This document shows, piece by piece, positions 1 to 22,300 of a DNA stretch of 64,000 nucleotides. Source of the stretch: Proteromonas lacertae. Taxonomy: Eukaryota > Sar > Bigyra > Opalinata > Proteromonadidae. The position numbers and the translations under genes are program-made. The DNA lies in the NCBI GenBank assembly GCA_002245135.1, contig NGBS01000583.1, forward strand, positions 372,001-436,000, read 5' to 3'. The notes below the pieces were generated by a model. The model saw only the letters and a list, made by a program, of their open reading frames with translations. It had not been told where the DNA came from and did not search any database. How positions within the stretch are numbered: the first letter of the stretch is position 1; every line of letters begins with the position of its first letter.

Positions 1-2988
1 TATCTGTTAAGAATAAGTTGGAGTCAAATAGTTCGTCTATTGATACATCTGTATATGTAAATATTTGTAAGGAAGTAAAAGATTGGTGTGATACACATTC
101 AACTGAGAATACTAACTATGATGAAGCTGATGTAATTCAAGCTAAGATAAAAACTACAGAAAAGGAATTAAGAATTAGTATACAGATCAGTGAATTGAGA
201 AGCGAATTGTATTATATATATATCACTTTTATCTTAATAATAGTGATAAATTAAAGAATGAAGTTAAACAAATTAATGATATTGATGTTAAAGAATATAT
301 TTTTAACATTGAAGATAATGAAAGAGAATTGAATGAGATGAATGTGAAAACAACAACAATAAAAAAATGTAACGAGTGTATGGAAAGAATAGAAAAAATA
401 AATAATGATCTTCATTTGTACATTAAAAAAATAAGGGATATAAAAAAGGATTTTGATTCATTACATTCAATCTAGTATGTCTATTTGTATTATATTGATA
501 AATAGTAATGAATATGATAATCAGCTGAAATTATGCCCAAATAATTACAGTTTAACTGATTATCGTAACTTATTAGAAGAAATGAGTCAGTGGATTGAAA
601 AGCACACTATCTATAATTGTACAAGTGAAGAAATCAATAAAATGATTAGAAGATTAAAAGAAAAAAGCGAAACATTACCATCAGAAATAGATAAATTGAA
701 TGAAATTAATGATTTAATCACTCAAATCAAGTTTTCAATATCACAATTGAATAATAGGATAAAAGAGAATAACAAACAATACGACTTATCTGATTTTGAA
801 GAATCTTTTAAGAGATTATATAAATCTGTTGGGAAATTGAATGTGAACAAGTCAGACATTGATAAATGTTATGAACTACTATCTAGTATTGATGATGAAA
901 ATGAAAAATTACTGTCTTATTTGAAAGACAAAGATACAATTTCCTCGATTATTAATTCTATTGAAGCAGTGATTATATCATGTGAATCTGATTTGACTGA
1001 AGGCAGATACAAATCATTACAATCATTTGAGGAGAAAATAAGCACAGTTTCTGGTTGGATAAAGAAGAATCCTTTGAAGAGTAAAACTGCGCTATCAGAG
1101 TATTCAAAAAGGTCAGAAGAAATAGAAAGAATAAGAAATGAAATGGATTCGCAATTGGATGTGTTGGATCATCAAAATAAGATTATTAATAAATTGTATA
1201 TTTATTGTAAATTAAAATTAATTATTCAAAATAGGAATGGAATGAAAAAACAAGAAGAATATAGAGATTGTGTTTCTTTTGTTGAATATGTAAATATAAT
1301 TATCGATAAGGCTGGAAACATAAACAATTTGACTGAAGTAACAAAATTATATAATGAACTACCTAGATGTTTTAATCTACATCAGCAGATAAATAACAAT
1401 TTGTATATAATATACAATGTTTTAATATGATTTAGAGAAAAGTACAAAGTATTATATAACAACTTAATTAAGATGATGAAAAAGAATAAAACTAGCTACA
1501 CAGAAATTGATAACTTTTATCAAGAAATTGTATCAAAAACTAATCCTTTTCAGTTTAAAACAACAGCATTATCACAATTCATAGAAGTTGATCAAAGATT
1601 CACAATAATGTTGATAAAATTAAATGAAAAAATAGATGAATATAGATATTACCTTCTAAATTCTATTTATACAACTCAAATAAATGTATTCACAAGCGAT
1701 TTAAAAGCAGTGAATAAATACTCTGATGATTTGCTTCGATTTAATTCACAATTAACAATGAGACAAACGACAATGTCAACGATGAGGAGAACTATTAGTT
1801 CATTAAATGTAGAATCATTATATTCTTCACTTAGAATATTTAATAGATTATATGTATTATTTCTATTACTATAAAATAATTATAATGTATATATAGATTA
1901 TATGGAAATCTTCATTTGATGAAATAGTAAATAATATACAGTGTTTACTTTCCAATTCTCATTCAAATTATAAAATATATAGTAAATATGTATCCTTTCC
2001 AAAAGATTTTCAATCTGCTCTTGAAAATTATGAAGAAGAATCAATTAAACTAAAGGCAATAGCTGATGCAAAATCACTTTGTAGTAAAATAGAAATGTTT
2101 GATAAGACTAATACTGTATGAAATATAATTTTCATATGATTTGCCATAGGAGATAATAAATGAGTATATAAACAAATCCTTTAACAAAGTAAAGAATTAT
2201 GAGTATATGATTATTATTTTGTAATTTAAATAGAAATCAATTCAATAAAATGGCTCAGCAAACTCCAATCTTAAAAGAATATATCGAAAATGAGATTTAC
2301 TGTGATTATACAATAGAAACACCAATAGATTTATTGAAGCAAGAAGATGATCTTAAAAATCATGAAGACATATTAATAGTATGAAGTATTATCATTATTA
2401 TACCTAGAAAAGAAGGGATGAATATTATCAAAATCTAGAAAAGACGTATAAAAAATTCTATAAAATGAATTACAATATTACTAATCCCATATTTGATAAA
2501 GATGATTTTGCATTATCAATTAAAAGATGTACAAGTGGTTATGTTAATTTACTGTTCAAACAAAGCCAAACTATGAATCTTATGTATGTAATAATTAGTT
2601 ATATTATTATTTTTCTTTGAATAGAATAAGAGAATATTTACCAGTAGTTAATGAATTGTTTCAAATTATGAAGATTGATACAAGTGAATTGTTCTTTTCT
2701 ATATATCCAAGAATAACAAAAATTTGGCTAGTTAACTGTATAGATGTAGTATTTGAAAAATACAGATCCTTGTGCTTTTGTTATAAAGAAAAAATAGAGC
2801 TATACAAACAAATAATTATACTCATTTCAGAAATTGATAGTAAAAAAGCTGAAAACAATGTAATAGTTAGATATTCGTTTGGTGATGAAGATTTTAAAAA
2901 TAATCTAGACAAAGCTGTTATAACAATGAAAAATGAGGATTTAAGGAATTTAAAAAAGAATTTTAACAGAATTGTTAATATGTTTTAA
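1..2988 (+). CDS. Hsp70-lid-like tandem repeat protein A (5' partial)
   Basis: 3' part of a large multi-exon gene that begins upstream of the window. Conceptual splicing of introns such as 209-243 and 475-505 joins a chain of about 60-90-residue helical units. Several contain a W-type motif (DWCDTH near position 90, QWIEKH near 590, GWIKKN near 1050) followed by an acidic/Lys-rich helix. The first unit (NKLES, then Cys, Trp, ending SEL) parallels the Hsp70 C-terminal lid pattern (N-LESY ... C-E--W-L--N ... E-Y--K--EL ... KLY). No signal peptide or membrane helix is visible, so it is probably cytosolic. It ends NRIVNMF-TAA. The neighbour at 3111 is a paralogue in the same orientation. Function is unknown. 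Seen: exons and motifs. Inferred: kinship to the Hsp70 lid. Alternative: generic spectrin-like coiled helices. Confidence 0.6.
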
Positions 2989-3059
2989 TTTATAAAAATA
3001 ATATTAATAGTAACAACCAATTAATTCACTAAATTGTTGTTGTGTATTTTTTTGTCAAA

Positions 3060-3068
3060 CCTCAAGCC
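3060..3068. promoter_or_regulatory. TCAAGCC element upstream of lid-repeat gene B
   Basis: CCTCAAGCC lies about 45 nt before ATG 3111. The same core occurs inverted before the paralogue start at 17988 (about 18013-18020). Confidence 0.4.
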
Positions 3069-3110
3069 GAAATCCAACCAAAATTATAAAAATTCTATAT
3101 TTTACCCTCT

Positions 3111-6100
3111 ATGGATAGCTTCTTGAGAGAAGCATCAGAATTAAAAAAAGACACTGGTTTGGAGGTTCCTCCTAAAAGAGTTGAAGTTGCTAAGAATAAG
3201 ATAGGTGATTCAAGAACAAGGGACTTTGAAGGATTGAGAAAACGTCTAATTGTATAATCTAAACATTAATATTACAATTATATTAGAGAATGAGGAAAAT
3301 GTACTGCTGTAAAAGAGTATATGAAGATCTTATGTATAATTTACAGTTACTACATCTTAGAAATTATGCGCTTGGAATTAAAGGTGATCATATCCGGAGA
3401 TTTAGAGAGATGCAACAGAAAATTGTTGAATATGATGAAATCGATGCTAGCACTGATGAGATTGATGATATTATGGATATTATTACTGTTATTATAGAAA
3501 ATTATGAACTTTTAGATAAAATGAGAGGATTTTATCAAATTCAAGTGTATAATGTATTAAATGAGTTATAATAGAAGCAAATTTACAGATTTGTATAGTA
3601 ATTATGCAGGTAGAATACCAGACAACATAACGCTATATTATAATAAACTTAAATCATATGGATTTAGAGATAATAACAGTGAAAACCTAACAAACCAATT
3701 TATTGAATTGAAAGAATATACAAACAGAATGGAAGTATTAATTTGTCTTATCTAAATAAATAGCATTTGGCTGTGACTTTTGACATGAATAAGTTCAACA
3801 GGATAAAGTATTATACACTCATATTTCTATTCTATTTTAGAGATGAATATCAAAGCTTAATTCGACAATGTGAAAAATCAATACTACATAATTTAGTTAT
3901 ACAATCTCATAGATTAATCTTAGAAAATGTAAATCAATATGTTCGATTAAACCCACTAAATGAAGATAATACAAATGATTATAAAGAAAAATTGAGATTG
4001 ATCGATGATAATTTAAACATATTGAAAGTTGTTTATCAAAATGGAGATAGAATTGTAAGAGTGTTGTATATATATCTTAATATATATTTTTAATAGAGAT
4101 GAACTGCAAAGATTATATAGTAAATGTCCTCCCACAATTCAGTCTTATTTCCCTGAGCATAATACTTATATACAAACTTGTTGTAATAAAGACTATTCAA
4201 GAATTAGTAATAGTGAAATTACTAAACTCGTAACTGATTCTAATGTTATTAAATATACTGTCGATGTATAGATTATTATTGATATTAATAATAGAACCGA
4301 TTAGATAATGTAAAAGAATTGAAATCCAAATTGTATTTTATTATTTATAGTTTTTAATTAATAGTAATACTATAATGAATAATTATGATAGAGTTAAAAG
4401 TTCTCTTAATAACAGTAGTATTGTTTACCATTATAACAATCTTATCCAACAAATGAAAGTATTTGATAATTATAATGATGTTACTGCCACATTTATTAAT
4501 ACTTTTCAATCCAAATTGAATGATTTTGAAGAGGTTATTCATTTTAATGAAAGTAAAGGAAATGGAGATGAAGCATTAAATATTCTTATACATATCCAAG
4601 AACAAATGTATATATATTTATATTTGTCATATTAATATATTAATAGAGAAAAATATGAAAATATCAAATTGCAGTATAAAAATATGAATTTTAATTCTTA
4701 CAAATCATCATATGAAGGTGTGTGTAGTTGGTATAGAAGCAATATAACTAATCCTGATAGAGTTATAGTATCTGAAGCAAAAGAAAAGAAACAGAAAATA
4801 GATGATATAATTCTGAAAGTTTTGGTATATTTTATTTTATATTTAAAATTTATATATTTTGTATGTATAGTACAGAGTTGCTAAAGCAGATATGGAAGAA
4901 TTAAATATCTTTTATGAAGATTGTAGACAGCGCGGAGTTAATGTAAGTGGAATTAATATGAGAGAAATATTTCCTGTTGATATTTTGGATGATTTATTTG
5001 AACGTAAAAGCAAAGATATTTCATTTTATGAGGATATGTTACATGATATACAGTCTGTGCATGATAATTTAAGAGTATTATCAGAATCTAGTGTTACAAC
5101 TATAGTGAATGAGATTAGTAGTTTATTGTATGTTTGTATTTAGTATATATTTGTAATAGAAACAGTTTTTATTATAAATATAATGATAATTCTTCAATCA
5201 GAGAACTGCCTCAATTAAGATCAGCTTATGATGAAATAGTTGAATGGGTTAGAATCCATAACAATAACAATAACACATCTAAAGATGAAGCTGAAGAAAC
5301 GCTCAACAAAATGAAAAGATTAATTGCTGATTTAGAGGTATAGATATGTATGTATATTTCTGATTAGTCGATAATAAGGAAACATAAGGTGGAAAATGAA
5401 TTGTATTCTTATTTATTGTTTATTCTCATAGTAATAAACTTGTGACAAAGTATCCTGGTGGAAATGATTCTATAATTCCTGAACATCAACAATTAATAGA
5501 TGAATATATGAATATGGATTATCATAAGATAGATGATAATCAATTTGAACGAATGATATTAAGAATAAGGAATCTAAGTCAAGTTATATCATCAAAGATT
5601 GATCAATCAATTGAATTGTCTAGTAGAATGTATAAATTATTGTTATATATTTGATCATATAGTAATGAAATAAAACAAAAATATCAAAATTGTAGAAATA
5701 GAGGGATTATTCTACAAGATTTAGATGTTTATTATAATAAACTATCAGATTATGAAAGGAAAATAAGAAAATATGAAATTAATAATAATGATATTCAAAA
5801 TATAGATGAAGAAATTAACAGTTTAAGTCATAAAATTGATGAAAAAGAAGAGGAGTACAATAATAAGACTAAAATAATGATGGAGGAATTGGCTGGATTA
5901 TTGTATAAACTAAATGTATATAATATCTTCAAATAGACAAGACTTCTACAGTTTAGGTTGTTCAAAAATTGTAAGAGATCATATAAAAGAATGTAATGAT
6001 TATTTTGAAGTATATGAAAGTGTTAATAGTTGGTTTCAAAGTCATCAAGCTGATACTATTAGCAAACAGGATGTTGAAGAAAAGTTGAAAGAAATGAAGA

Positions 6101-8898
6101 AATTTTTTAATAAATTAATGTTACAAAGTGATATTTGGGAATTATCATCAAAATTGTATATTTCATTATATTTTTTAACTCTAATTTTTTGTTATAGAAA
6201 TAAAATAAGTGAATTGATTAAAAGAGAAAAACAAAAGTATTTGAACATTAGTTATAGTGATTATGTAAATAATTGTGAATTATTCAGTAAAAGACTGTCT
6301 AAATTGGATATAAATCGAAGTAGTAAAACAGAAATAAGAAATTTAAAAACAGAAGTGGAAAAATTGGAGAATAATCTAAATGGATATATTCGACAGTGTG
6401 ATACTATCATTCCAATATTAGAAAATATTAAAAGTGAATTGTATATATATATATATATATTAATTATATATTATTTAGAAATAAAATATATGGAGTATTA
6501 GAAAAGAACAGACGTAGATATAATCTTGAAAAGGAAATAACTGAATATCGATCATTGAATACTTGGTTTGAATCATGTAATGGAAGTAATCTGGCTAAGC
6601 TGACAAAGGAAAGTTGTGACAGTAAACTGAATGAAGCAAAGCAAATAACTGAAAGTCTGATTAAATCTATACAAGAAGGAAAGAAGTTAGAAAATTGTCA
6701 TAAAGATAGAGTTGATGAATTGTATCAATTGTTGTTATATTATTATTATTAGACAAAAGTTTATTACCAAAATAAACAAATCAAAATATAATGTTTCACT
6801 ATTCAAATCAAAATGTAATGAAATACAGAAATTGTTGAATGAAAAAACTCCTCTAAATTCAGGTTTAGATGATTATATTAAAATAAAGAATGATATTGAT
6901 GAACTTGTTGATAAATTCTGTGCATTTACCGAAGAAAGAAAAAAGGTACAAACTGCTATTACGAATATGAATAATAAATTGTATTTTTTATTCTCCTTAT
7001 TTATGTATATCAATAGATCCGAATTTAATAATTTAGTTGAAACTTACCCAACAAATTTAGCAATAAAGAACAACTCACCAGGAGTAGAGAATATAAGTAA
7101 ATGGTTAAGAGCTAATACAATAAATTCAAATTCTCCATTAAGTGAATATGGAAAGAGATTATCTCAATTAAAAGAAATATTACAAAAGGTGAATGATGCA
7201 ATAGATGCATCAATGAGACAAGAACAATTGGTTAAAGAGATAAACATAAAAGTTCGACAATACAAAAATAATAAGGAGGTATATAACTATTTGAATCAAT
7301 TACTGAATAAACTGAAGAATATAAGCGAAGTAAATAATGTTCAAAGAAATTTATCAGAATTAGAAAACTGTTATGAAAAGAAACAAATTATTATTGGAAA
7401 AATGTATTATGCATCATTATTTATCTTCATTTAATAGAAACAAATTTTGTAGTTTATTTGATTATTTAAGCAGTCGACGTGCTTCAATAGATGCAGATGT
7501 AAAACGATATTATAATTCAATTAAATCAGATTTACATATGTTTGATTTGTCAAACAACACTCTAGAATCATATGAAGCGAAACTAGAAGATATTAAAAGA
7601 ATGATGAATCTCATAAAACAAAATGTAAAGATTTATCAAATGAGATTAATAATAAATACACACGAAACTCAAATATACTTTTATTCTGAAGAGTATAATC
7701 ATTTGTATCCTGATGAACCAATTGCATATCCAGAATCATATAATGATTTTACAATGAGCCATTCTATATACAGAGCTCAGGAGAGTAATATAACAGATAA
7801 AATGAACGATTCAATCAACAGATTTAATATTGTTTATCATACATATCATAATAAAATATTGGAATTACAGGAGAATATTAAAATGATAATGGATAATATG
7901 AAAAGTAAATACAGTAATAATTTTAAAACAATTAGTAAATTGAATAGTAATGCATTACCACCAACCTTTTATCAGGATTTTACTGCCATTATAGATAATC
8001 CATCGAACAGTTTAACTGTTTGTAATAGACAATATGAACTTGCATTAGAGTATAAAAATATATTAGATGAAGCAATTGATGAATATTATTCCAATAAAAC
8101 TTCTGTTATTACAAAGTTGCAAAATGAAATTGCTACATTAGCCCAACAAGTACCAATACTAAGAGATGATTATAATAGTATTGATTTCAATTTAGAAGGT
8201 CGAAATACTCAATATTTAGCTGATTTTGAACTAAGATTAGTTGATTTAAAGAAACAATTTATAGAAAAAAGAAACAAGTATTACAACGAATCTTTAGCTC
8301 CATATTATATCAAGATGTACTGTTCATTATATCGTCAAAACTATACCCCTAATACTGATTTACACAACTTCATCAAAAATGTTACAATACCATATAGTTA
8401 TGAAAGATATAGAAGACAATGTGGTTTGTTTAGATATTTGTATATATTTATTATTATTATTAATATTATTATTGTATTTAGGTGTAACACATATTTACCA
8501 TGTGCTATTACGTTGTTTCAAATTTTAGCTATTAAAGATGAAAAGAGAGTGTGTAATGAAGTAATGCCCAAAATGTATAATGAGATAATGAGTGTAGTTG
8601 ATTTGAAAGATATTGATGCAATGTTCTTTAAATATCAGAATTTATATAATAAGTTGATTAATTTGATAGGTATGTGTAGTAAATACGATTCATTAAAGTA
8701 TTAATTCAATCTAATATTTTATTTTCTAGGAGTTCAATTTTAAGTATGCAGTATGAATTGCAAAATCGTAATATAAAATTAAATTTCTCAGTTCCACAAT
8801 TGAATTCACACCAAAAGTTGACAATTGACATGAATAGTTTTGGTAAGATTATAGAAGATATGAAAAAAGCAAATAGTATTCTTAATTCATATAAATGA
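3111..8898 (+). CDS. Hsp70-lid-like tandem repeat protein B
   Basis: Complete gene of about 20 exons. The start is chosen because ATG 3111 opens an exon (MDSFLREASELKK) matching the first exon of the minus-strand paralogue ending at 12564, and because a TCAAGCC element lies 45 nt upstream. Most exons encode one repeat, starting N-x-[FL]-x-x-L and ending in Leu, and are bounded by introns of the same phase (TT|GTAT...TAG|A). W-type lid-like units occur as SWYRSN (about 4730), EWVRIH (5240), SWFQSH (6030), TWFESC (6560) and KWLRAN (7100). Another recurring module has the motif IPEHQQLI (about 5480). The last exon follows an intron starting GTGTAG near 8672 and ends ILNSYK-TGA. No enzymatic motif. 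The gene lies just upstream of the PPR gene and 2 kb from a lidless Hsp70. Role unknown; a helical scaffold or client-binding array is inference. Confidence 0.65.
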
Positions 8899-8977
8899 TG
8901 ATAATATTTTGATTAATCTTCCTATATATGAGTTTTTAATTTTTGGGTTTATCAAAAATATTTTTCATTGAACCAAA

Positions 8978-10843
8978 ATGTTACATAGCTTTTTCTCATT
9001 ATCTAGACAGTTTAGAGTTATCAATAGATTTTCATCTGTTAGAATACCTTGCATAAATCTTTTATGTAAGAGAAATTTCACAGAAACTATGTATGTTTTT
9101 GTATTTAGTTGTTTAGTGATGGTGAATTCAATTATTATTGCAACAGTATATGGCAAAAAGCACAAAATAATATAATAAGTAATTCAATAGTCTTAAAAAT
9201 AATAAAGTCGCCAAATGTTGCTTCTCAAACAGTTTATTGTCAATGCATGCAAGTATGTGATAATGCTCAGATGATAATCGAAACTTATAACAAAATAGTG
9301 CAAGTGGGCTTGATTCCTGATATTGCTACTTTAACTACATTAATATCTCGTTTATTCTGTTGTAAAGCAATAGAACAAGCAGAATATTTCTATATGAAAA
9401 TATCAGCTGAAATTATTCTCCCAATTAAATCATATCACGATATCTTATACTATGCAGCACTTCAAAAGGATTATATATTCATAGAGAAAGTAATAGATGA
9501 TATAATATCAAATCATGTAAATATCAGTCCTCAAATTTACTATTACATTGTACATGGTTGTTCAAATGATATTTCAGTTTTAACGGATCTATTTTCAAGA
9601 ATGATATCATATGGTGTATGTCCAAGGTATGAAGATTTATTATATTTATTTAAATATCAACCATATAAAAGTGATTCATTGTTATATGCATTAAGATACT
9701 TAAAATTTGCTGTTAATTCAAAGATTGATATTGATGAAAATATATTTTGTATTTACTTAAATAAAATCAGTAGAACACATCGAATGAGTATTAGTACTAA
9801 AATATCACTAGTAAAACAAATATTGGGATTAAAAAAGTTAAGAAATATTCCAGTAACTTGGCATTATTATAACTCACTAATGAATATGGCAAATGAGACT
9901 AAATCATTGAGATTTGGTAATCAAATATGGAATGAAATAATAAAAGCAAAAATTGAACCAAATGAAATATTATATGCAAATTATGTGAAATTGTTAGGAA
10001 GTTTAGGATTGCATGTTGAATGTGGGAAAATAATAGAAGAAATGCAAAGTAAAAGTATATATTATCTTTTATTCATATTTTGAATAGAATTATATGTATC
10101 AATTTATTTATGTAATTCACTATTACAAGCTTGTAGTTTCAATGGAAGATTTGATTTAGTTTATGAATTATATAAACAGTTTATTTCAAAGAACATTACA
10201 CCAAATATGACTACTTATTGTCATATTCTTTTTTGTCTTTCAAAGAATAGTAGTAATCACAAATTAGATAAGAAAAAGTATATGGAAACTATAATATCCT
10301 ATATATCTTATATTTTATCACATTATTCATATAATGATTTCTTTATAAGATATTCTATTTTGGCTTTATCAAAATACAATCTATTCGATTTTATTCGAAG
10401 TATTATATATGAATGCTAATAAGAATTTAATAAGAATAACATCTAATACTCTTCAATATGTATTTATCAATGCAATTGCTAGTGGTAATATTCAAATGGT
10501 TTCCAATCTGTTAAATGATATGAAAAATACAAGAGTTGAAATGTCAGTGAAAATGGGTAGAGTTTTGCTAAATACTTTTGAAACAAAGTTTAATGGAGTG
10601 TATATGTGTTATTATAAAGATTTATATAATAAGTTGTTAGAGTTGCATTGCGATATAGATAATGAGAATGCTGTTCACGCGAAGAATCTGATTCAGCATC
10701 TAGATCCAAAGAATGATATGTTATTGCCTAATCCAGATTTGAAGTATAATTCATTTGATGATTTATTGAATTATACAAAAGAAGGATCACTTGAAGCAAT
10801 ATTAGAAGAAGCTTTGAAACAATACCAGCTCCTTTTAAAATAG
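8978..10843 (+). CDS. PPR-type mitochondrial RNA-binding protein, with one frame break
   Basis: The N-terminus (MLHSFFSLSRQFRVINRFSS) is basic, Ser/Arg-rich and lacks acids, as a mitochondrial targeting peptide would be. After a roughly 26-nt intron near 9091 the protein is a chain of helix-turn-helix units typical of pentatricopeptide repeats (for example the unit with KIVQVGLIPDIATLTTLISR near 9290, and later EIIKAKIEPNEILYANYVKL). PPR proteins bind organellar RNA for processing, stability or translation. A second intron is at about 10052-10084. At about 10408 the frame shifts by one base inside a TATATAT run; the protein continues as NANKNLIRITSNTLQ and ends with TAG 10841-10843. The break looks like a short-repeat indel, since no intron of fitting length is available. 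The specific target RNA is unknown. Confidence 0.7.
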
Positions 10844-10925
10844 ATTATTTATATCTTAATTAAGCTGTTTTTGTTTGTAATATATGTCTGTAATATATGA
10901 AAAATCTACTGTAAAGTGTGAGAAG

Positions 10926-10936
10926 CTTGGCTTGAT
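10926..10936 (+). promoter_or_regulatory. GGCTTGA element upstream of the lidless Hsp70
   Basis: AGCTTGGCTTGA ends about 22 nt before the Hsp70 ATG. Shared core and spacing with the SRPK, AAA and lid-repeat genes. Confidence 0.4.
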
Positions 10937-10958
10937 TTAATTTTTAAAAAGAAAAATA

Positions 10959-12488
10959 ATGGAAGGTAGAATAGCAGGGATCGATTTAGGAACAACTTAT
11001 TCTTCATGTGGGGTTGTAAAAATAAATAAAGTAGAATTGGCCCCATTTAATAGTAGTGATTACAGAGAGCCATCTTGGTATCATTACAATGGCGCTTCAG
11101 AAATATATGGAAGTGCTGCAAAGGATAAAGCAGCAACAGAAATTGAGTTGTGTATGTATGATTCAAAGAGATTTATAGGTAAGACCTATAATGAAGTCAA
11201 AGAAAGATGTTGGAAGATATGTGAATGTAATAAATAGAGATGATAAAATTGTTTATGAAATAAAAAATAGTGAAAATCAATTATTAGGAACTTTCACTCC
11301 ACAGACTGTTCATGAAAAATTGTTGAAGAAATTCAAAAGGGATTTAGACTCATTCAATGGTGAACAGTTAACTAGAGCTGTAATAGGTATTCCAGCAACT
11401 TATAACAAAAGTCAAAGAGAAGCAACAATGAAAGCTGCTTTATGTGATACAACAAGTCCTAATGGAGTTAATACAGTTTATAAAAGTGTAAAACTAATAA
11501 AAGAGCCAGTAGCTGTAGCAATTTCATATTTATATGATTTATCAAATCCAGTAAATGTAACAAACAATTCAAAGATTTTAATTTATGACTTTGGTGGTGG
11601 TACATTTGATTTAGCATTAGTAGAATATGATAATGGTTATTTAAAAGTCATAGCAACAGATGGTAAAGATCATTTGGGAGGACAAGATATTACAAATGCT
11701 ATATACGAGTATTATGAGAAGAAATATAAAAAAGAAATAGAATCAAATGATATAATGAAAACTAAAAGGAAAAAAGGAAGATTATTGAAAGCATGTGAAG
11801 AAGTAAAGAAATTGTTTGTTGATGAAAATGCTGAAAATGGAACTTTAGATTTTGGTGATAGTGATGAATTAAGCTATGCTTTATTTGAAAGATTATCAGA
11901 TCCTTTTATAGATGACACAATTAAACTAACCAAAGACTTTTTGAAAAAGAATAGTGTAAAAGCAAATGAATTGTATAAAGTAATTGGAACAGGAGGTTCA
12001 AGCATGTTGAGAAATGTTAAAGAAAAATTGTCTAAAGTATTTACAAAAGATAAAATTCTTATAAGTAAAACACCATTTGAAGATGTTGCTAAAGGTGTTG
12101 TATTATACGGTTATAAGTTTATGCAACGTGAAACAATTGCTCCAATTGGTATTAGAGCAACAAGAGACAAGAAGAAGCGTTTTATAGAGATACTTCCAGT
12201 AGGAACAAAATGGGGTAAAACAATCACAGTAACTGGAGTAAATGATAATAAAGCACCTGATGCATTATTCAAGTTTTATGAATATGATCTATCTGAAGAG
12301 AATTATTTAGGGAAATTGATATTACCTTTTAGTGATAAATACAAGAATAAGAAATTAATTCTATTCAAGTGACATTGAAAGTGAAAATTAATAATTATGG
12401 TGAACTTGAAGCAACAGCAAGTTATGAAGATGGAGATGAGAAAAAAGTAATTATTCGTTTATTTAAAACTAAAGAAGATATTGAATGA
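10959..12488 (+). CDS. Divergent Hsp70-family ATPase lacking the lid subdomain, two frame breaks
   Basis: About 509 residues once the frame is followed across two single-base breaks (about 11199-11205 and 12345-12356). Hsp70 signatures: phosphate-1 GIDLGTTYSS at the N-terminus, IGIPATYNKSQREAT, connecting EPVAVAISYLYD, phosphate-2 IYDFGGGTFDLALVE and adenosine-binding GTGGSSMLRNV. A short beta substrate-binding domain follows (VTLKVKINNYGELEATASYE). The protein ends KTKEDIE-TGA, aligning with the linker at which canonical Hsp70 starts its helical lid (SKEDIE...), so the alpha lid (roughly 100 residues) is absent. Sequence after the stop is AT-rich and has no lid in any frame. A GGCTTGA element lies 25 nt upstream of the ATG. 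Genes with lid-like repeats flank it. Either a working lidless chaperone, or, if the breaks are real, a pseudogene. Confidence 0.82.
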
Positions 12489-12563
12489 ATTTAAACGTTA
12501 TTTTATTTTGATTTTTGTATTGTATGATATTTTCTAACACAAACAGAATTATAGGATAATTTT

Positions 12564-15500
12564 TTAATTCAATTGTTTTCTTAGAAGCTGTATATTATTC
12601 TTTAATTCATTAATCAATTCAATAAAATCATTTTCAATAAAATTATACAGGAATGAATGAACTATTTTATCCATCATTTCCATTTGATCTTTAACTATTA
12701 TCTTCTTTCCATTTAATTTCTCTACTAGATTAGTATAAGTGTTTCTTTTCTCTAAATATTCATTGAAAATATCTTATAATCATCTATAAACAAATTATAA
12801 TGCAAGAAATTATAATACATCACATCTTAAAGTTAAGAAATTATACTTTTCCATTAAACTTTCTGTATCTCGAAGATTCTCAAAGAATGTTTCATACTGG
12901 CTTATTACATTATTAGCTATAATATCACTATATTGATTATTTACATCAAAAAGTGAAACTAGTTGTAAAACAGATGATAAATGCTTTTCATTTATATAGC
13001 GAATTAATTGTGACTTACTTTGATATTTCCTTAAATATGGAAGAGAAGTTTCTCTAATATAATCATTTAATTGTCTATTATGAACATCTTCTTGAGTAAT
13101 TGAACTATAATACAGTATAAAATATATATTCAAATATACATATAAATAATTTCGTATTGTTTTTCTAAACTGTTGGATTGATCATTCAATTGTTCTGTTA
13201 TTTCACTTTCATACTGCAATAATTCACTTACATGACTATCAATTAATATTGGATCATCAATATCATAATGAAAAACGATTTTAGATACAAATGATTGAAT
13301 GCTTGGATGTTTCAATGCAATATCTTTAAACTTATATTCATAACTTCTAATATCATCTCTTTTACTCTTCAAATATTGGTTTATTAAAGGCTATATATTG
13401 TTTATAGTAATAGTTTATAATACTTTTACTTTCTTTGTATATAACAAGTTATGTGATTTGATTAATTGATAACTTTCATACATATTGAAATGTGGAGTTT
13501 TGCATAATTGCTTATACTCTTCACATATATCATCAGGTATTTGTATATAATTCTTATATTTTTCATATGCTTTTGTAAATCTCTTTTCTACATTTGATAA
13601 TCTATTCTCATTCTCTAGTTTTGCAGCTTGATAAGTAGTCTACCATAATTTATATAAATATTATTATTATACATAAACAAAATTCCAATCTTCAATCAAT
13701 TTCTCACAATAAGTAATAGCTGTTGGTAAATCTTCAGCTGATCTTTCTACTGAGAAATATTCCATTATCTCTTTACATGATTCTGGTAATTCAATCTCTT
13801 GATCATCATCAGGTTTGTTTTGATTGTATTCTGTTACACAATCTCTTAACTGAGTAGTATATATAGAAGTAATAAGTTTATAAGCTGTCATTGAATCATA
13901 ACTCTAAAGGAATATAAAGAAAAATTATAGATACAATCAATCTACTATAGTTTCTAGTAAGTATATTTTGTGCTTCTTTGAACTGAGCCAAGTTGTTTTG
14001 AGTAATAGAAAGTAACTTATCATTATCTAATTCTTCATACTGATCAATTAAACTCTGATCGACTGATATATTCTTACTCTTTAAGTCATTATAAGCTGAT
14101 TTGTATTTTGATTTCAACACTGATAGATTTATTTTAATCTTATAACATTCTGGCAGTTCTGTTACTATTTGTTTAGCAACTTGAATTCCAGAATGAGATA
14201 ATACTTGTCTCTTTATTACATTCAAATAATCAATCATTTCTGCATCAATATAAGTTGAACTTAGTTTATCTCTATAAATCAAATTATTATTATTAACAAA
14301 TAATACATTTCTGATAGTAATAAAGCTTCTTCATTTTCTTCAGCTACAAAGTTATTGATTTCATTCGAAAGATCATTTAATTCATTCAATTTGTCATTAT
14401 ATTCACTAAGTGGAGTAGTAATAATTAATGGATGCATCATTAACCATTGACTTATCATATTGTATTTATTCTGTAACTTCACTTTATTCATATTCGATGA
14501 AGTGTTTATTATTTCTTGATATTTATCTCTACAAAAATATATAATTAAAACTAATCATACAACTCTGATTGTATTACTAAAATCATATCAGCCACTTGAA
14601 TTCTTTCTTTAATAAACACATCTAATTCTGAAATAGTTTGGTTTATTTGACTGATTATTTCAGTATAATCGTTTATTGATGAATGTTCAATATCGTGTGT
14701 ATTTAAAAACTCAATGTATTGTGTATACTTTTCAGAGAAAGTTGATAAATCATAAAGTGTCATGTTGTTTTGAATAACATCATAAAGAATACGACTAATA
14801 AATGAATATTAAATGAATGTATATACATTTGATCTTGACATTGTTTCTCTAATCTATCAACAGTTTGATTTGATTGGATAAATATCTAATAATATAAGCA
14901 ACAAAACAACATACTTCTATCTGTTTAAGTGTTTCTTTTATTTTCTTTGACATTTCAATACATTCACTTTCTTCAGCTTTTTCAATATTTAGTTTTGAAA
15001 CCCAATCACAATATAATTGATAGTTTGCTAGAAAATCATTTAAATTGTACATTTTGTTATTGTCTATCATTGTATATAATGCAGTTCTATAAAGCAATAA
15101 GTGTGAAGAATAATTATACATATCATTTTGTATATCTAGCAATATTGGTTTTATCTTATCAATTTTAGTTTTATAATTATTCAATTCAGTTATAAACGAA
15201 GTAATTTCATCATATAACTCTGCAAATTGTTGAGAAGTAGTGGTTTCTGGTGTTACTAATGATATTTTAGTATGTAAATCAAGGTATCTTGATAAGAAAT
15301 CAGTGTCACTAATATCATATTCTGCCTGAGTGTCTTTCATTAACTGATCTAAAACAGCTCTAAAATGAATAAAACATAACGATAAAATACAATTGTTCTT
15401 TCACTTTGTTAAAAGTACCTTCACTTTCACTTTGATTGATTAATTTCTAGATCATTATAATAGAATGGACTAATAATTATATATTTATACTTTATATGAT

Positions 15501-17988
15501 TGAACACTGTTAGTTATCAATGTCAATTGATCTTCAGCTTCCATCAGTATTGCATTCTCCCTATTCTGGTTTAATAACCATTTATTCACATTCTCATAAC
15601 ATTCGAAATAGACTGATATATTCTCAATTGGCGGAGATGTTGAATAGAGTTGATAAAACTCATTTCTATAAAAACAATAACAATATATGTAATATACAGT
15701 TTCTTACTAATATTTTGCAATAAAACATCAATTTGGTTATTAGTATTCTTTATTTCTTCCTATTACATATAATAATTAATTCATTTATACATCAATTTTA
15801 GGATTAATTTCATTGATTTTTGAAATTATCAATTGTATTTCCATTTCATTCATATCATTATTAATCAGTTTTAATCTCTTCAACATAACTTCATTATATT
15901 CATTTTCAATTGATGATAATGATACTCCACGAGTAGAACATGTATTATATTTTTGTTCCAATTCATCACTACAACAAAGAATATAATGATAGGTTATATA
16001 CATTAACTGTGATAAGTTTGAATATTGAGCTAACTTTGACATAATTGTAAGTTTCATATCATTTATGTTCTCTATTACTTGATTATACTCCATATCATTC
16101 ATATTATTGAAATTCATTGATGATAATTGTGTTAATAATTGTTGATGTTCTGGTAGTAATATTGGATTAGGAGTTGAATATAAATTCAATAATTCCTTTC
16201 TATTAAATATATAAATATATATAGAATATAGAATAAATACATTTTATTGGATATTTCACTTCCTCTACGATTCTTTGATTCAACAATACCTCTAACATTC
16301 TTCAAGTCATTCATAATCACTTTATAATAATCTTCACTCATAATATTATAGTTTATATTACCATATTTATTGATAATCTGCTGATGTTCTGGGATTATAT
16401 TTGGATATGGAGTTCCATATATTGACATTAATAAATTCCTATATAATAATAACAATAATAATAGTTTATACATTTCATTTATTATTTCATTGGCCTCTTT
16501 TATTCTAGTCTTAATAATATATTGAATATTATTTATCTGATTTCTATAATCCTGTATATCTGCTTGAGTTACTGTAGAATAATCAATAGCATTGACTATC
16601 AATAGTAATTGTGTATGTTCAGGTATGAAACTACTGATTGATATTTGTGGAGTAAGAGATGTAGAGTATAAATCAGTTAATTCAGCCACAGATGATTGAA
16701 TTGTTATACAGTTTTGATTAATCATCTATAATTGAATATATCTATATATAAACAATACAGTTAGTTTCTGTTGATTTTTTATCAATATATCCATCTTTTC
16801 ATTGTATTCTTTAGCATCAACAACTTCAGGGTTATCTTTTATAACAGAAAACCAGTCATTTATTGTTTGATATATTAGAATATATGGTTGAACAATAGCA
16901 TCAGATAGAAGTGTACAATTCTGTATCAAATCAAAGAATTGAATCAACTGTCCTTCTATTGGTGTAACAGTTGATGAAATGTGTAACGACTCTATATTAT
17001 TCTTAAATGGTATTAATGTATCATTTACATATTTATTAAATTCTATCAATTTCAACATATTAAAATCATAGGTTTTTATAAACGTATATTTGTTTTTTAT
17101 ATCTGAAGATAATGAAGATTGATCAAGCTGAGAATAATCACTTAATATTTTGTTTTTCATTGTATCATAGCATGATGCTAGATCTGCTGTTGTAATTAAG
17201 TTATTTAGATATATTTCACACTGTTTTTTATCATTCATATTAACAACTTGAAGATCTTGGTGTAATTGATTTAATTTCTGTGGATTATATTCTAATAATT
17301 GTAATAAATTCCTAAAAATAAATGATATATAAAAGATAAATAATATACAAATATTGATCAAATGCAGACTTATATGAATTATCTTTTAAAGAATCACAAT
17401 GAATATAATAATAAGTTCGATTTTCTATTAATAAAATGTACTGTAAATGTAGTGGTTTCATTGTAGCACTAAAATTACACACTTTTATACTGATATAATA
17501 TTGCTTAAGAGGTTCTGGGACTTGTAAGAAACAATAAAGGAATGAACGAAGTTGATTGTGGAATTCATGAATTTGCTGGTCCAAGAGGGTAGAAATTTTC
17601 AATTTATATTTATCAAATATATCTCTAATAAGTTCATCTTCTGAATTTTCATCTGCATCAGTACCAGTAGCACAATCTATTTCTTTCATGAGTTCTTTGT
17701 TTTCATTAAATCTATCTTGATATTCTGGACATTGTGGATATAGATAATCACTAAAATAAGAAATATATAATACATAACCTCATTTATCAGGACATGTTTG
17801 TAATACACTCTTTTTATAGTCTAAGATATAAACAACATCATTAATACACTAAATCTATCATGGATAGAGCTGATTTCTTGGTCCAATACATCACCATTCA
17901 GCTTTGCAGCTTTTTTAACTTTTCCAACTAACGGTTTTTCTCCTACAATTTTAGTAATTTCTTCTTGTTCCTCGATTACACGATCCAT
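12564..17988 (-). CDS. Hsp70-lid-like tandem repeat protein C
   Basis: Minus-strand paralogue of the 3111-8898 gene. It starts at ATG 17988 (MDRVIEEQEEITKIVGEKP) with an element reading GGCTTGA on its strand 25 nt upstream, and ends IQLLRKQLN-TAA at 12564. Exons again encode units of about 60-75 residues divided by introns of about 25-40 nt. W-type lid-like units: NDWFSVIKDNP with EYNEK (about 16850), NKWLLNQN (about 15590), YCDWVSK (about 15000) and SQWLMMHP with LSEYNDKLNEL (about 14430). Three successive units carry the PEHQQ/PEHTQ motif (about 16600, 16380, 16150), also present in gene B. The splice around 17740-17860 is uncertain: two phases are possible and one meets a stop, so an indel is possible there. 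It converges on the lidless Hsp70 with a 75-nt gap. Confidence 0.65.
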
Positions 17989-18098: not shown

Positions 18099-21000
18099 TT
18101 AAATTTTATCAATATTAACATTTGATACTACTTGTTTTAAAGCCAATTTTCGGTATACCCCATTTTCAATTCTCATTAAATCTTCATGCTTTCCTGCTTC
18201 AACTACTCTTCCATGATCCATTACAAAGATTATATCAGCATTTTGAATTGTACTTAATCTATGAGCAACTATTATACTTGTTCTATCACTACTTTCTAAT
18301 AATTTATCAATTGCTTCTTGAACAACAGCTTCACTTTCGGTATCTAAAGCACTAGTAGCTTCATCTAACAACAATATCTTTGGATTTCTTAATACAGCTC
18401 TGGCAATGGCAATTCTTTGCTTTTGTCCTCCACTTAATTGTTCTCCTTTATTACCAACTTCAGTATTATATCCATCTGGGAATTCCATTATGAAATTATG
18501 AGCATTTGCTGCTTTTGCTGCTGCTACTACATCTTCATGAGTTATTTTATCATTTCCATAATCTCCCATCTTTATATTATCTTCAATTGTTCCACTGAAT
18601 AAAACTGGTTCTTGACCAACTAAACCAAATTGTTTTCTCAAATACTTTATATTGATTGATGTAATTTCATGACCATCTAATAAAACTTCACCTGAATCAG
18701 CATTATAGAATCTTTGTAATAAGCCAATTATTGTTGATTTACCACAACCACTTGAACCAACTAAAGCAACTTTCTGACCTTTTTGAATCTTCAAATTCAA
18801 TTTTCGTAATACTTGTTTGTTATTACCATCTACATTATAACCAAAATAAACATCTTTTAACTCAATTTCACCTTTTATCTCTGGTTTTTCTCCATTTTCA
18901 TTCGAATGATCAATAGTTGGAATTCTATCACAGATATTAAAAATACTGTTTGCAGCTATTTTGAACTTTACAGTATCCATTCCTAATGTAGCAACTAAAC
19001 CAATTGTTCCAGCACTATTAATATAAATAAATAAATAAATAAATGTTATACCATGAAGCCATTGCTAAAAACACATTCATAACTTGAACAGTATCACATC
19101 TACCTTGTAATATAAAAATACCACCAACTGCAAATCCTAATACAAAATTAGCGATTGTTATAAACTAAACAATATAATATAATATATATATATATATATA
19201 CATCAATATATCCTTGAACTATACCATTACAATATGAATCTCTCTTTCCTAACTCATTTGATGTTTGTTGTTTTGTTTGAAATTGCGACAATAAATTATC
19301 TTCTAATCCATAAGATTGAACTGTTCTGATTGAGTTAACTGATTCTGATACAATAGTACCTGCTTCTTCAAGAGGTTTTTTTACTTTTTCTGCGCTTTTT
19401 GACATAAATATAACTTGAACATATGTTCCAAATACAATCAGTGGAATGGAAATACAAACAACAAAAGTTAAAAGCCAATATGATGCAAAAGCGATAATAA
19501 GACTTGTAATTATACCAAAGAATGATTGAGAGTTAATCGCTAACTTTTGACCTAATGCTGTTTTAATATATGTATTATCTGTTGAAATTTCTGTTGTTAT
19601 TGAACCAGCAGTATGGTCTTTTTCATTATAAAATCCAACATCTTGTTTTAATAAAGATGTATAACACATTTTTCTTATTCTGCATGTATAAGATTCAGTC
19701 ATTGCACCAAAACCATAACATTTAAATGAATTTCCAACACATAATAGGATATTATAAACAATCATAATAACACACCACATTGTAACTCCATCCATCATAT
19801 CATGTACATTTGGTTTGTTATAATCATTTAACATGTTAGAGAAAATAAATGAAAATAAAGGTAAACCAATACCAACCATTGCTCCACCTATAATACCAAT
19901 GAAAATATTCCATTTTTCTGATAAAACATATGATAATAACCTCCAAGCTGATTTATTTGTCTCTTTTTGATCAATTACAGTTTTATCAATTTTTATATCT
20001 GATTTGATTATACTTGATTCACGAATGGATGATTTCTTCTCAAGAACTACTTCAGTTGGTGATACAATACCCTCAATATTATGTAGATTTTGCTTATTAC
20101 ATAATTCAGTATATACTCCATTTAGTTTCAATAATCCTAAGTGTGAACCTTGTTCTATTATTTCTCCTTGATTCATAACTATTATTCTATCAGCTTTTTC
20201 TATTGTGGATAATTTATGAGCAATTATAATTGTTGTTCTATTTTTTTGTTTTACCAATTCATCTAAAGCTCCTTGAACTATCTTTTCACTTTCACTATCT
20301 AATCCACTAGTTGCTTCATCAAGAATCATTATTGATGGATTTCTAACTAAAGCTCTAGCAATAGCTATTCTTTGTTTTTGACCACCTGACATTGAATGAC
20401 CTCCATCGCTTACTAAAGTATCATAACCTTGTTGAAATTCCATTATAAAATCATGAGCATATGCTAATTTAGCAGCTTTAATAATATCTTCATCACTACA
20501 TTCTAAATTTCCATATCTTATATTCTCTTTAATTGTGCCATAGAAAAGAACTGGTTCTTGACTAACTACACCTATTAATTTTCTATAACTCTTTATATTG
20601 ATGTTCTTTATGTCTTTATTATCAACTAATATTGATCCTGATTCAGGATCATAGAATCTTTGTATTAGCTGAGTTATTGTTGATTTTCCACTTCCACTTT
20701 TCCCAACTATTCCAATTGTTTGTCCACTTTCTATCTTCAAACTAAGATTTTTCAATACTGCTTGTTCTTTTCTTGATGGATAAGTAAAACTTACATTTCT
20801 AAACTCAATAATACCTTTGATTTCATCTATTTTCTCATTCTTCTCTTCATTTATTTCTGATTTACTTTCAATTGTTGAATAGATTGTTTTACAAATACCT
20901 CTTGATAAATTGAATGCTGATATTGCACCAGGTATCATAAATAAACTATAATTACCAGCCATTAATACTAAATAAGTTAAGAATGCTCCTCCTCCTGTAA

Positions 21001-22300
21001 AACAACTATCACCTGTTTGACATTTAAATGATTCATCACACTATGATAGATTATAACAATTTATTTATATATACAATATTCCTATTATTACATTCTTCAG
21101 ATGTAAAGTTATGATGATTGTTATTACAAACAGTGGAAATAAACAACTCACCAAACTCAGATTCAATATCATACATTCCAGGACAACTCTTTCTGAATCT
21201 AATGAATATAATAAAGAAATATTAATTATACGATTCCATCATATCATTTTGATCATCTCTAACAATAGCACCTCCATACCATAATCCACATGCTAATGCA
21301 ATATAAAACACCATATTGAAAAAACCTTCTGAAAATCCATTAAATCCAGCTACTTTTATACCAATCTTTTTTGCCTTAATAATCTAAAATTACATTTATA
21401 AATGTATATCTATACTGCTTGATCATAGATCTTATGAAAATAATCTTCAAGACCATAGGATGCAACTGTTTGAATTGAACTAATACTTTCTTCAATTATT
21501 CCACTACTTTTAGCATAGGCTGATTGTAAAGATCCGAAATATTTACCTGTATAGTTTCCAATATAAGTGGCTATGATACATAGTGGAATTCCTATTGCTA
21601 GTGTAACTAATGACATTTTCCAACCCTATGATCAAAATATAACAATGTAGTGATTATACGACAGTTAACCCAATTATATAACCTGTAATTAATTGACTAA
21701 ACGCTTTTAACATTTTACCTATTTCTATGCCTATTCCTGGAATTATTGAATAAGTATCATCAATAACTCGTGTTGACAATGTTTTAGAATCATTCATATC
21801 AAACCAAGATATTTCTTGTTTTAATATACTTTTATAGTACATACATCTAATTCTAGCCATTTGTCTTTCTAATAACATATTAAACAATCATATATCCATA
21901 CCAGCAGTATATTTAAAACAAAATGTGAATAAAAATGCTGTTATAGCGTTAACAACGTCTATTACTAACACATAAATAGAATTATTTGCTATGGCTTCTT
22001 TAATCTATTGATATTACTTAATATTAATACTTCACTTTCTTCAAGTAGTTCAATTAATTGAAATTGGTCAAATAATCTTCTTACAAATATCATTGCGACT
22101 GGATGACATACTCCACAGATTAATGCGCTTAACACTCCAACAATGTACAATAAAACATCTATTTTATCAGCATATTTGAATAGTTGACTAACAGGTAATG
22201 TTTTAGAATCAGTTTTTGTTGAATCAAGAATATCTTTAGAAGACTGAACATTATCTTTTTTAACTACATCAGTAGATGCCTTTTTGGTATTATTTCCCAT
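18099..22300 (-). CDS. Full-length ABCB/MDR-type ABC transporter
   Basis: Two halves, each with membrane helices followed by a nucleotide-binding domain. NBD1 (about 20100-20850) has Walker A GKSGSGKST, signature MSGGQKQRIAIARAL and Walker B IMILDEATSGLD. NBD2 (about 18130-18900) has GSSGCGKST, LSGGQKQRIAIARAV and ILLLDEATSALD. All catalytic residues are intact, as expected of an ATP-driven exporter of hydrophobic compounds, lipids or peptides. The start at 22300 (MGNNTKKAS) precedes a Lys/Ser-rich tail and the first helix. Exon junctions fit well, for example FKYTA|ERQMARIR across the intron near 21888-21920. A 9-bp inverted repeat lies 16-52 nt upstream of the ATG. The substrate cannot be read from sequence; homologues sit in plasma or internal membranes. 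Confidence 0.93.

Follow-up and report, generated by a model that had tools for sequence, protein, structure and literature searches.

Lid-like helical repeat genes around a lidless Hsp70-like gene in Proteromonas lacertae: a candidate family of lid-derived rods

Why should an Hsp70-like gene that ends at the entrance to its lid lie among three large genes built of repeated helical units? The earlier note on this DNA offered two readings, a split chaperone for which polymeric lid proteins provide the lid function in trans, or an expanded family of lid-derived scaffolds. Our analysis of the window (the whole stretch of 64,000 nucleotides) leads to a form of the second. With a probability of roughly 0.45, judged from sequence comparisons, the three genes, termed A, B and C, encode lid-derived helical rods resembling the tail of Hsp110, perhaps docking scaffolds for Hsp70-type proteins.

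Genes A, B and C are paralogs composed of repeated helical units and are clustered around the Hsp70-like gene. The 3' part of gene A occupies positions 1–2988 of the forward strand (15 exons in the gene model, with GTA..AG introns of 27–47 bp; units at model positions 293–673). Its end agrees with the span proposed previously, but its start does not, lying before the window at −1047 in the gene model and probably at −1924. The spans proposed for the two other genes hold. Gene B (3111–8898, forward strand; gene model and unit profile) codes for 1676 aa in 23 exons, and gene C (12564–17988, reverse strand) was modelled as 1506 aa down to 12810, where the gene caller ended; its last exon was followed by eye to 12564, with the stop codon read at 12564–12566. 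B and C can be aligned across about 1,280 residues. Between gene B and the Hsp70-like gene (10959–12488, forward strand) there is a further gene outside the system (8978–10843, forward strand; two-piece gene model, by-eye reading), which we take to be pentatricopeptide-repeat-like. When A, B and C served as queries in a sequence search of this genome, in which the best candidates were scored, arrays were seen at this cluster only. Residues 500–1170 of gene C found zero homologs among 7991 candidates scored out of 5.8 billion proteins, and the listings from searches of open-licence papers contained no account of comparable lid-unit arrays.

The unit is helical, about 78 residues long and encoded on repeated phase-2 exons. 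Units with and without a conserved W (W and non-W units) mostly alternate; a single exon of gene A (506–1195, forward strand) holds three consecutive units in the order W, non-W, W according to the gene model and the unit alignment. The arrays of helical units described earlier are real, as a profile made from the units of two genes recovers those of the third with full scores of 36.9, 49.7 and 57.0 bits, against −80.7 to −103.2 for the reversed proteins. At least a dozen units had been said to follow a lid pattern. The strict motif W-[LIVF]-x2-[NH] occurs only 6 times across the three proteins (shuffle mean 0.47; 6 reached by 0 of 1000 shuffles), but 12 of the 24 aligned units share a W in one column, which accounts for 12 of all 17 W residues in A, B and C. 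Structure prediction of a single exon-encoded unit, suggested in the earlier note, gave helices and speaks neither for nor against a lid: the AF2 model of unit c15 of gene C is a two-helix hairpin (pLDDT 87.8), and no Hsp70 lid is among the 50 entries listed by VIA-align or, for the single-unit model, among the 50 listed of 56 Foldseek matches, the hairpin being generic in both cases. The three-unit exon of gene A, modelled by AF2 without an alignment, was all helical at pLDDT 51, too poor for a fold. From the exon layout, long helices may run from unit to unit.

Lid likeness was assessed with HMMs made from canonical lids only, free of any repeat sequence (lids.hmm from 44 lids, seed.hmm from 6 seeds), against 2515 six-frame ORFs from 260 kb. 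The strongest lid-like unit is c15 (exon 14307–14528, reverse strand), whose ORF 14282–14554 reached E-values of 1.8e-4 with seed.hmm and 9.2e-4 with lids.hmm. This exon ranks right behind four canonical lid-bearing ORFs, with the second unit of Hsp110 in between in the seed.hmm run; an NBD-lid gene upstream of gene A and W units of genes A and B are among the next places. In gene B, W unit b16 (5937–6155, forward strand) scored 14.4 bits with lids.hmm and 8.3 bits with seed.hmm (ORF 5914–6498, 10.9 bits), and the exon holding W unit b20 (7017–7403, forward strand) scored 12.8 and 9.2 bits (ORF 6691–7431, 10.0 bits). The score of the gene C exon with W unit c10 (15491–15665, reverse strand) was weak, at 1.4–3.5 bits. 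Summed over the 12 W units, the scores came to 83.0 and 89.2 bits and were reached by 0 of 400 randomisations in each of five schemes, a test that is too generous because the units are paralogs.

Profile comparisons gave a similar picture for the W units, with a score of 22.3 (36%) against lids and 13.7 (1%) against spectrin. When whole profiles were permuted, the real score against lids was reached by 0 of 200 permutations of single columns and 1 of 200 permutations of 7-column blocks. Ten of the 22 matches of the W-unit profile to all PDB sequences, including the top six, are Hsp70s aligned in the lid; this result is not specific because a W-unit profile scrambled in 7-blocks also had its best match in Hsp70 lids (E 0.019), which made up 7 of its 10 matches. 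A second scrambled profile and the reversed profile found no lids in the PDB. The part of the lid that is matched is the distal bundle, namely the end of helix B and helices C–D. The lid HMMs begin in helix B and therefore could not probe the gating helices; the segment that covers the substrate in Hsp70, from helix A into the first part of helix B, was given profiles of its own (from 44 Hsp70-type or 133 lid-bearing proteins), and the scores of A, B and C with these were reached by 10–200 of 200 shuffles. The lid likeness claimed for the repeats has some support in the W units; the non-W units show no lid signal in profile comparison (10.0). The W units bear a modest likeness to the Hsp70/Hsp110 lid, greater than their likeness to spectrin and greater than that of most randomisations, which makes an expanded family of lid-derived scaffolds a fair reading, subject to the caveats from permuted and scrambled profiles.

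These caveats lend appreciable, if lesser, weight to the possibility that A, B and C are generic or spectrin-like rods. The unit would then be a three-helix or hairpin repeat peculiar to this lineage, its W motif and helix-forming composition would account for the resemblance to lids, and its place near Hsp70s would be due to chance. Such a chance vicinity is likely because one query gave 112 Hsp70-type matches in this genome. Besides the block-scrambled profile, the silent non-W units and the generic hairpins, this reading is favoured by a 19-unit profile that ranks a designed helical bundle and keratin above lids. For the profile of all units the margin is narrow (lids 16.8; spectrin 14.4, 2%), and lids permuted in 7-blocks score as high as 16.8 in 2 of 150 cases, those permuted in 11-blocks in at least 8 of 150. 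The real score of c15 was reached by 2–3 of 400 scrambles of c15 in 11-blocks, and in whole-protein scans gene C exceeded its own shuffles but A, B and the upstream gene did not. Against generic rods, spectrin was rejected as the family of the units on its low score with the W-unit profile, and Pfam found no spectrin in the array proteins up to E 1; the assignment to spectrin, plakin or coiled coils that had been named as speaking against a lid was not found, all these families staying below their curated cut-offs, as did helical families in Pfam generally. The place of the W units near the top of a search that contained no repeat sequence, and summed scores above all randomisations, also argue for a lid. 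Pfam gave no HSP70 match in A, B and C up to E 1 and hence no NBD or SBD-beta ahead of the units, and we therefore call them lid-like and not members of the Hsp70 family; we infer that they may share common descent with lids.

The gene directly upstream of gene A, outside the window, has an Hsp70-type NBD (Pfam E 6e-26). Aligned with three relatives, its segment after the NBD scores 75% against canonical lids and 0.09% when reversed, and the stretch of about 58 residues between NBD match and lid start looks too short for SBD-beta. The beta-domain profile gave no signal in this gene or in loci L043 and L044 and −1.1 bits in L046, with just 3.7 bits in the true Hsp110 of this genome. The gene apparently represents an Hsp110-like class in which the lid follows the NBD directly, without SBD-beta. 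The similarity of its helical tail was equalled in 0 of 195 local shuffles for gene A, 0 of 200 for gene B and 2 of 198 for gene C. Of two other NBD-lid tails, that of L043 was not above shuffles and that of L046 was above them against gene A alone (1 of 200). Hsp110 tails, this genome's own included, contain two lid-like units, unit 2 matching unit 1 at 96% (E 1e-9). No signal was obtained when the repeats were compared with the NBD-lid segment (12.6; 12.0 reversed) or with Hsp110 unit 2 (15.0, 2%).

On the reading that we prefer, lid-derived rods, an exon-coded helical unit would have been duplicated repeatedly to give the long proteins A, B and C. The W units would descend from the C-terminal bundle of an Hsp70-superfamily protein, which runs from the end of helix B through helices C and D; the likeliest source is an Hsp110-like tail, for example that of the NBD-lid gene directly upstream. 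The rods would bind Hsp70-type proteins and most likely act as multivalent docking sites or scaffolds, carrying many copies of the bundle that in the Hsp110 Sse1 touches the nucleotide domain of Hsp70, as PMC4753570 describes.

The Hsp70-like gene ends in RLFKTKEDIE, presumably a few residues past the point at which lid helix A of a canonical Hsp70 begins. Its truncation at the lid entry (KTKEDIE), noted earlier, is upheld with the caveat that the frame is broken twice, at about 11.2 and 12.35 kb. The NBD is present, with a Pfam HSP70 match (1–368, E 1.4e-57) taken from a model that bridges both breaks by doubtful introns, and with DLGTTYSS and DFGGGTFD, which we take to be the phosphate motifs of an actin-like NBD. 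Small introns at both places were rejected; as modelled they remove conserved NBD residues and look unlike the other introns, and the interruptions are therefore read as frame breaks. With the beta-domain profile the main frame had no match and the tail piece 4.0 bits; the beta domain of this gene is probably too divergent for the profile. The nearest scored paralog is 38% identical. No lid exon was found downstream: among ORFs of at least 35 aa on the forward strand 3' of the gene, the top lid HMM match had 8.1 bits (E 0.45) and is antisense to gene C.

The two breaks, together with others where the upstream NBD-lid gene begins, would suit a decaying cluster in which these two genes are pseudogenes and the arrays unrelated bystanders, while the frames of neighbouring genes stay open over 1888 and 1746 aa. 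We consider this unlikely. A, B and C retain long, consistent exon series, which together with the B–C alignment suggests selection, and the frame breaks could be sequencing errors.

A missing lid is usual in this genome and not special to the gene at 10959–12488: 17 of 21 complete Hsp70 models, from selected loci, show no lid signal. SBD-beta gave 36–91 bits in all 14 lidless paralogs tested, with a profile that may include a near-identical relative of one of these paralogs, L037. As a separate observation, the lid region of Hsp110 has its closest proteins at 94% and 91%, and one lidless Hsp70 at 97%. The split chaperone, in which the arrays would provide a lid in trans and gate the substrate pockets of lidless Hsp70s, is very improbable, since lid loss is usual, the arrays were found at one cluster only and only the distal C–D bundle is matched, with no gating-helix signal in A, B and C and a broken frame in the neighbouring Hsp70, even though lid-like arrays adjoin a lidless Hsp70 and compensation in trans has a precedent in Zuo1, which complements the beta domain of yeast Ssz1 according to PMC7083937.

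A broader and rather doubtful reading is that this lineage dismantled Hsp70 and multiplied its parts. These would be a large family of lidless NBD-SBD-beta Hsp70s, a complementary Hsp110-like family in which NBD and lid lack an SBD-beta, and lid units polymerised into free proteins, so that lid or exchange functions would come from separate multivalent proteins. If the units are lids, the lid bundle of Hsp70 would be a mobile, duplicable module able to exist outside Hsp70, and the genome would be a natural dissection of the chaperone into complementary parts, in which the roles of lid and Hsp110 bundle could be tested without engineered truncations. Even if they are merely lid-like, many lidless Hsp70s in one genome are unusual in themselves and testable.

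Like the canonical Hsp70 lid (SBD-alpha; PDB 1ud0, 2lmg, 5z8q), the array unit has W-[LI] near a helix end, a short loop and an acidic E-[YF]-x2-K-x-L helix, and the lengths are alike (about 72 residues in the lid, 78 in the unit); the lid, however, is a single copy on its own NBD and beta domain, whereas the arrays have many copies and no Pfam NBD or beta domain. Spectrin repeats, too, are helical units arranged in tandem and bear a conserved W, and long helices that may run on between units would be a further likeness; but they measure about 106 residues and show little profile similarity to the shorter array unit. Ssz1, Hsp70-13 and Hsp70-14, the last of which is not known to have a lid, are likewise Hsp70s minus a C-terminal part, whereas here there are many lidless paralogs in one genome. 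Yeast Ssz1 is described as without SBD-alpha (PMC7083937), and metazoan Hsp70-13 as having lost the C-terminal domain and Hsp70-14 some sequence (PMC12692333). The Hsp110/Grp170 proteins (Sse1), which are nucleotide exchange factors, differ from the arrays in having an NBD, and from the upstream class in a beta domain that the latter apparently lacks; they resemble the arrays in the lid-type bundle, putative in the latter, and in the two lid-like units of their tails, and the upstream gene is itself Hsp110-like.

In the 50.2 Mb assembly (G000) the window occupies C1140:372001-436000, and gene structures in and around it were predicted by dynamic programming, using a small gene caller whose training set consisted of long open frames. 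Introns are mostly 24-50 bp long with GTA...AG ends. Three paralogous giant genes were predicted, namely A (-1047 to 2988, + strand, 1183 aa; negative coordinates lie upstream of the window start), B (3111-8898, + strand, 1676 aa) and C (17988 to 12810, - strand, 1506 aa, with the last exon taken to 12564 by eye). The start of gene A probably lies at -1924, since the piece from -1924 to -1347 is similar to the starts of B (E 6e-5) and C (E 7e-4). The three proteins can be aligned with one another across most of their length (B with C, E 3e-87, without composition correction), and none of the three has a Pfam match at the curated cut-off. ABCB-type transporter exons adjoin the cluster (18099-21040, - strand), and a calcium channel, a kinesin and an RGS protein are further window genes, all named by eye. 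Together with the introns, this gene content marks the source as a eukaryote. By eye, a single open frame of 1888 aa (48166-53832, - strand) looks like an extracellular protein made of repeats, with a membrane segment at its C-terminus.

The repeated units of about 78 residues in A, B and C are real, being recovered in a leave-one-gene-out profile test that is not circular regarding their existence. Unit starts lie within 4 residues of exon starts in 19 of 28 cases (random, 0.098), a coincidence that is partly circular because units were cut at exon borders. Many exons measure 196-257 bp, the remainder spanning 14 to 987 bp, and phase 2 introns account for 9/14 in A, 17/22 in B and 11/19 in C. 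Tryptophan occupies one common column in 12 of 24 aligned units; these W units mostly alternate with non-W units (506-8898 and 12564-17988), so that the duplicating module may be a W/non-W pair.

Against HMMs built from canonical Hsp70 lids, the strongest unit was the gene C exon at 14307-14528 (- strand; E 1.8e-4 and 9.2e-4), with other W units and the gene upstream of A ranking after it. The mitochondrial Hsp70 lid ranked below this exon in both runs, and the second lid-like unit that follows the first in the Hsp110 tail (L018:2042-4697; lids matched by a profile of 38 Hsp110 tails with hhalign 96%, E 1e-9) ranked ahead of it in one. The pooled W units outscored every randomisation (five schemes of 400 each), and permuting the whole W profile reached the real score in 0/200 (columns) and 1/200 (7-blocks). 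Lids were the best PDB matches of the W profile and were absent from the 16 matches of its reverse. When entire proteins were scanned with the lid HMM (lids.hmm), C reached 12.3 where its shuffles peaked at 5.6, but none of A, B or the upstream gene surpassed its own shuffles. Also against a lid identity, permuted lid profiles exceeded the all-unit score in 2/150 (7-blocks) and at least 8/150 (11-blocks), and structure comparison of a unit gave a generic outcome. Spectrin was rejected as the family of the units because its profile scored low with the W units; with the all-unit profile its distance from lids was small (14.4 for spectrin, 16.8 for lids), which speaks against a lid. The lid-like repeats of the earlier note are partly supported for the W units, some of which rank high with lid HMMs, but non-W units gave no lid signal in profile comparison and one of two scrambled W profiles matched lids equally well. 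We put the probability that the units share common descent with the Hsp70 lid at about 0.6.

The window Hsp70 (10959-12488, + strand) does end at KTKEDIE, as the earlier note had claimed. Two breaks interrupt its frame, a beta domain can hardly be made out in it, and its closest paralog among the candidates scored shows 38% identity. Hsp70-type genes are very numerous in the assembly, with at least 65 matches (54 of 365 candidates scored), or at least 112 with the window Hsp70 as query (111 of 202 candidates scored). From loci hand-picked from the former search, and hence a non-random sample, a start-motif filter that missed others caught 25 Hsp70 models, and four truncated by locus ends were dropped. 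Lidlessness is common across the genome and no special trait of the A-B-C cluster, because 17 of the 21 complete models, including a fused one of 1044 aa, lack lid signal (≤0.4 bits). The other four were typed by eye. One is cytosolic and two are identical-scoring copies of BiP type, all three matching by construction as they were included in the HMM; the fourth is of mitochondrial type (9.1 bits). The lidless family is spread genome-wide (L022-L037), often in tandem, with four complete genes in L033. The BiP-type models (L020:1416-3489 and 7833-5760), equal in length and scores, are inverted about 2.3 kb apart; on contig C1119 a cytosolic Hsp70 has two equal matches.

Upstream of A, on the same strand (+), lies an Hsp110-like gene (C1140:367237-369976; window -4764 to -2025) whose start contains frame breaks. 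Its Hsp70-type NBD (E 6e-26) comes first, and some 58 residues beyond the NBD a lid segment begins with KNEIESDLYEYRR and has W-L further along; together with three relatives this segment aligns with canonical lids at 75% in profile alignment. As a query the gene returned 64 matches, eight of them itself; the 56 others include other Hsp70 types, such as the true Hsp110, and 11 extend to query residue 420 or beyond, into the lid segment. The gene belongs to a sizeable family in this genome.

A, B and C would be lid-derived docking rods, which we prefer to lids acting in trans. The earlier note had proposed the latter as one of two readings, with the arrays replacing the missing lid of lidless Hsp70s, and Ssz1 with Zuo1 offers a precedent for such compensation (PMC7083937), so the idea is not absurd. 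It is nevertheless unsupported: only the distal bundle matches the lid, a profile of the gating part (helix A together with the initial stretch of helix B) finding nothing in A, B or C, and lidless Hsp70s abound while the arrays were located only in this cluster among the best candidates scored. For docking rods speaks also, weakly, the apparent resemblance of the upstream gene's tail to A, B and C (shuffles reaching the real score in 0/195, 0/200 and 2/198). The tail at locus L043 shows no likeness to the three and that at L046 to A only, and profile comparison of the arrays with the NBD-lid segment or the second Hsp110 unit gave no match. Among the papers listed in searches of open-licence literature there was no described counterpart of lid-unit arrays.

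Hsp110 contacts Hsp70 via its nucleotide domain and helix bundle (PMC4753570), and the NBD-lid proteins could for that reason, by analogy, be exchange factors without a beta domain. That domain was undetected in the upstream gene and gave no signal above 0 bits in the completely read loci L043, L044 and L046, which have the same NBD-lid order; the test is weak, as the profile gives the true Hsp110 only 3.7 bits.
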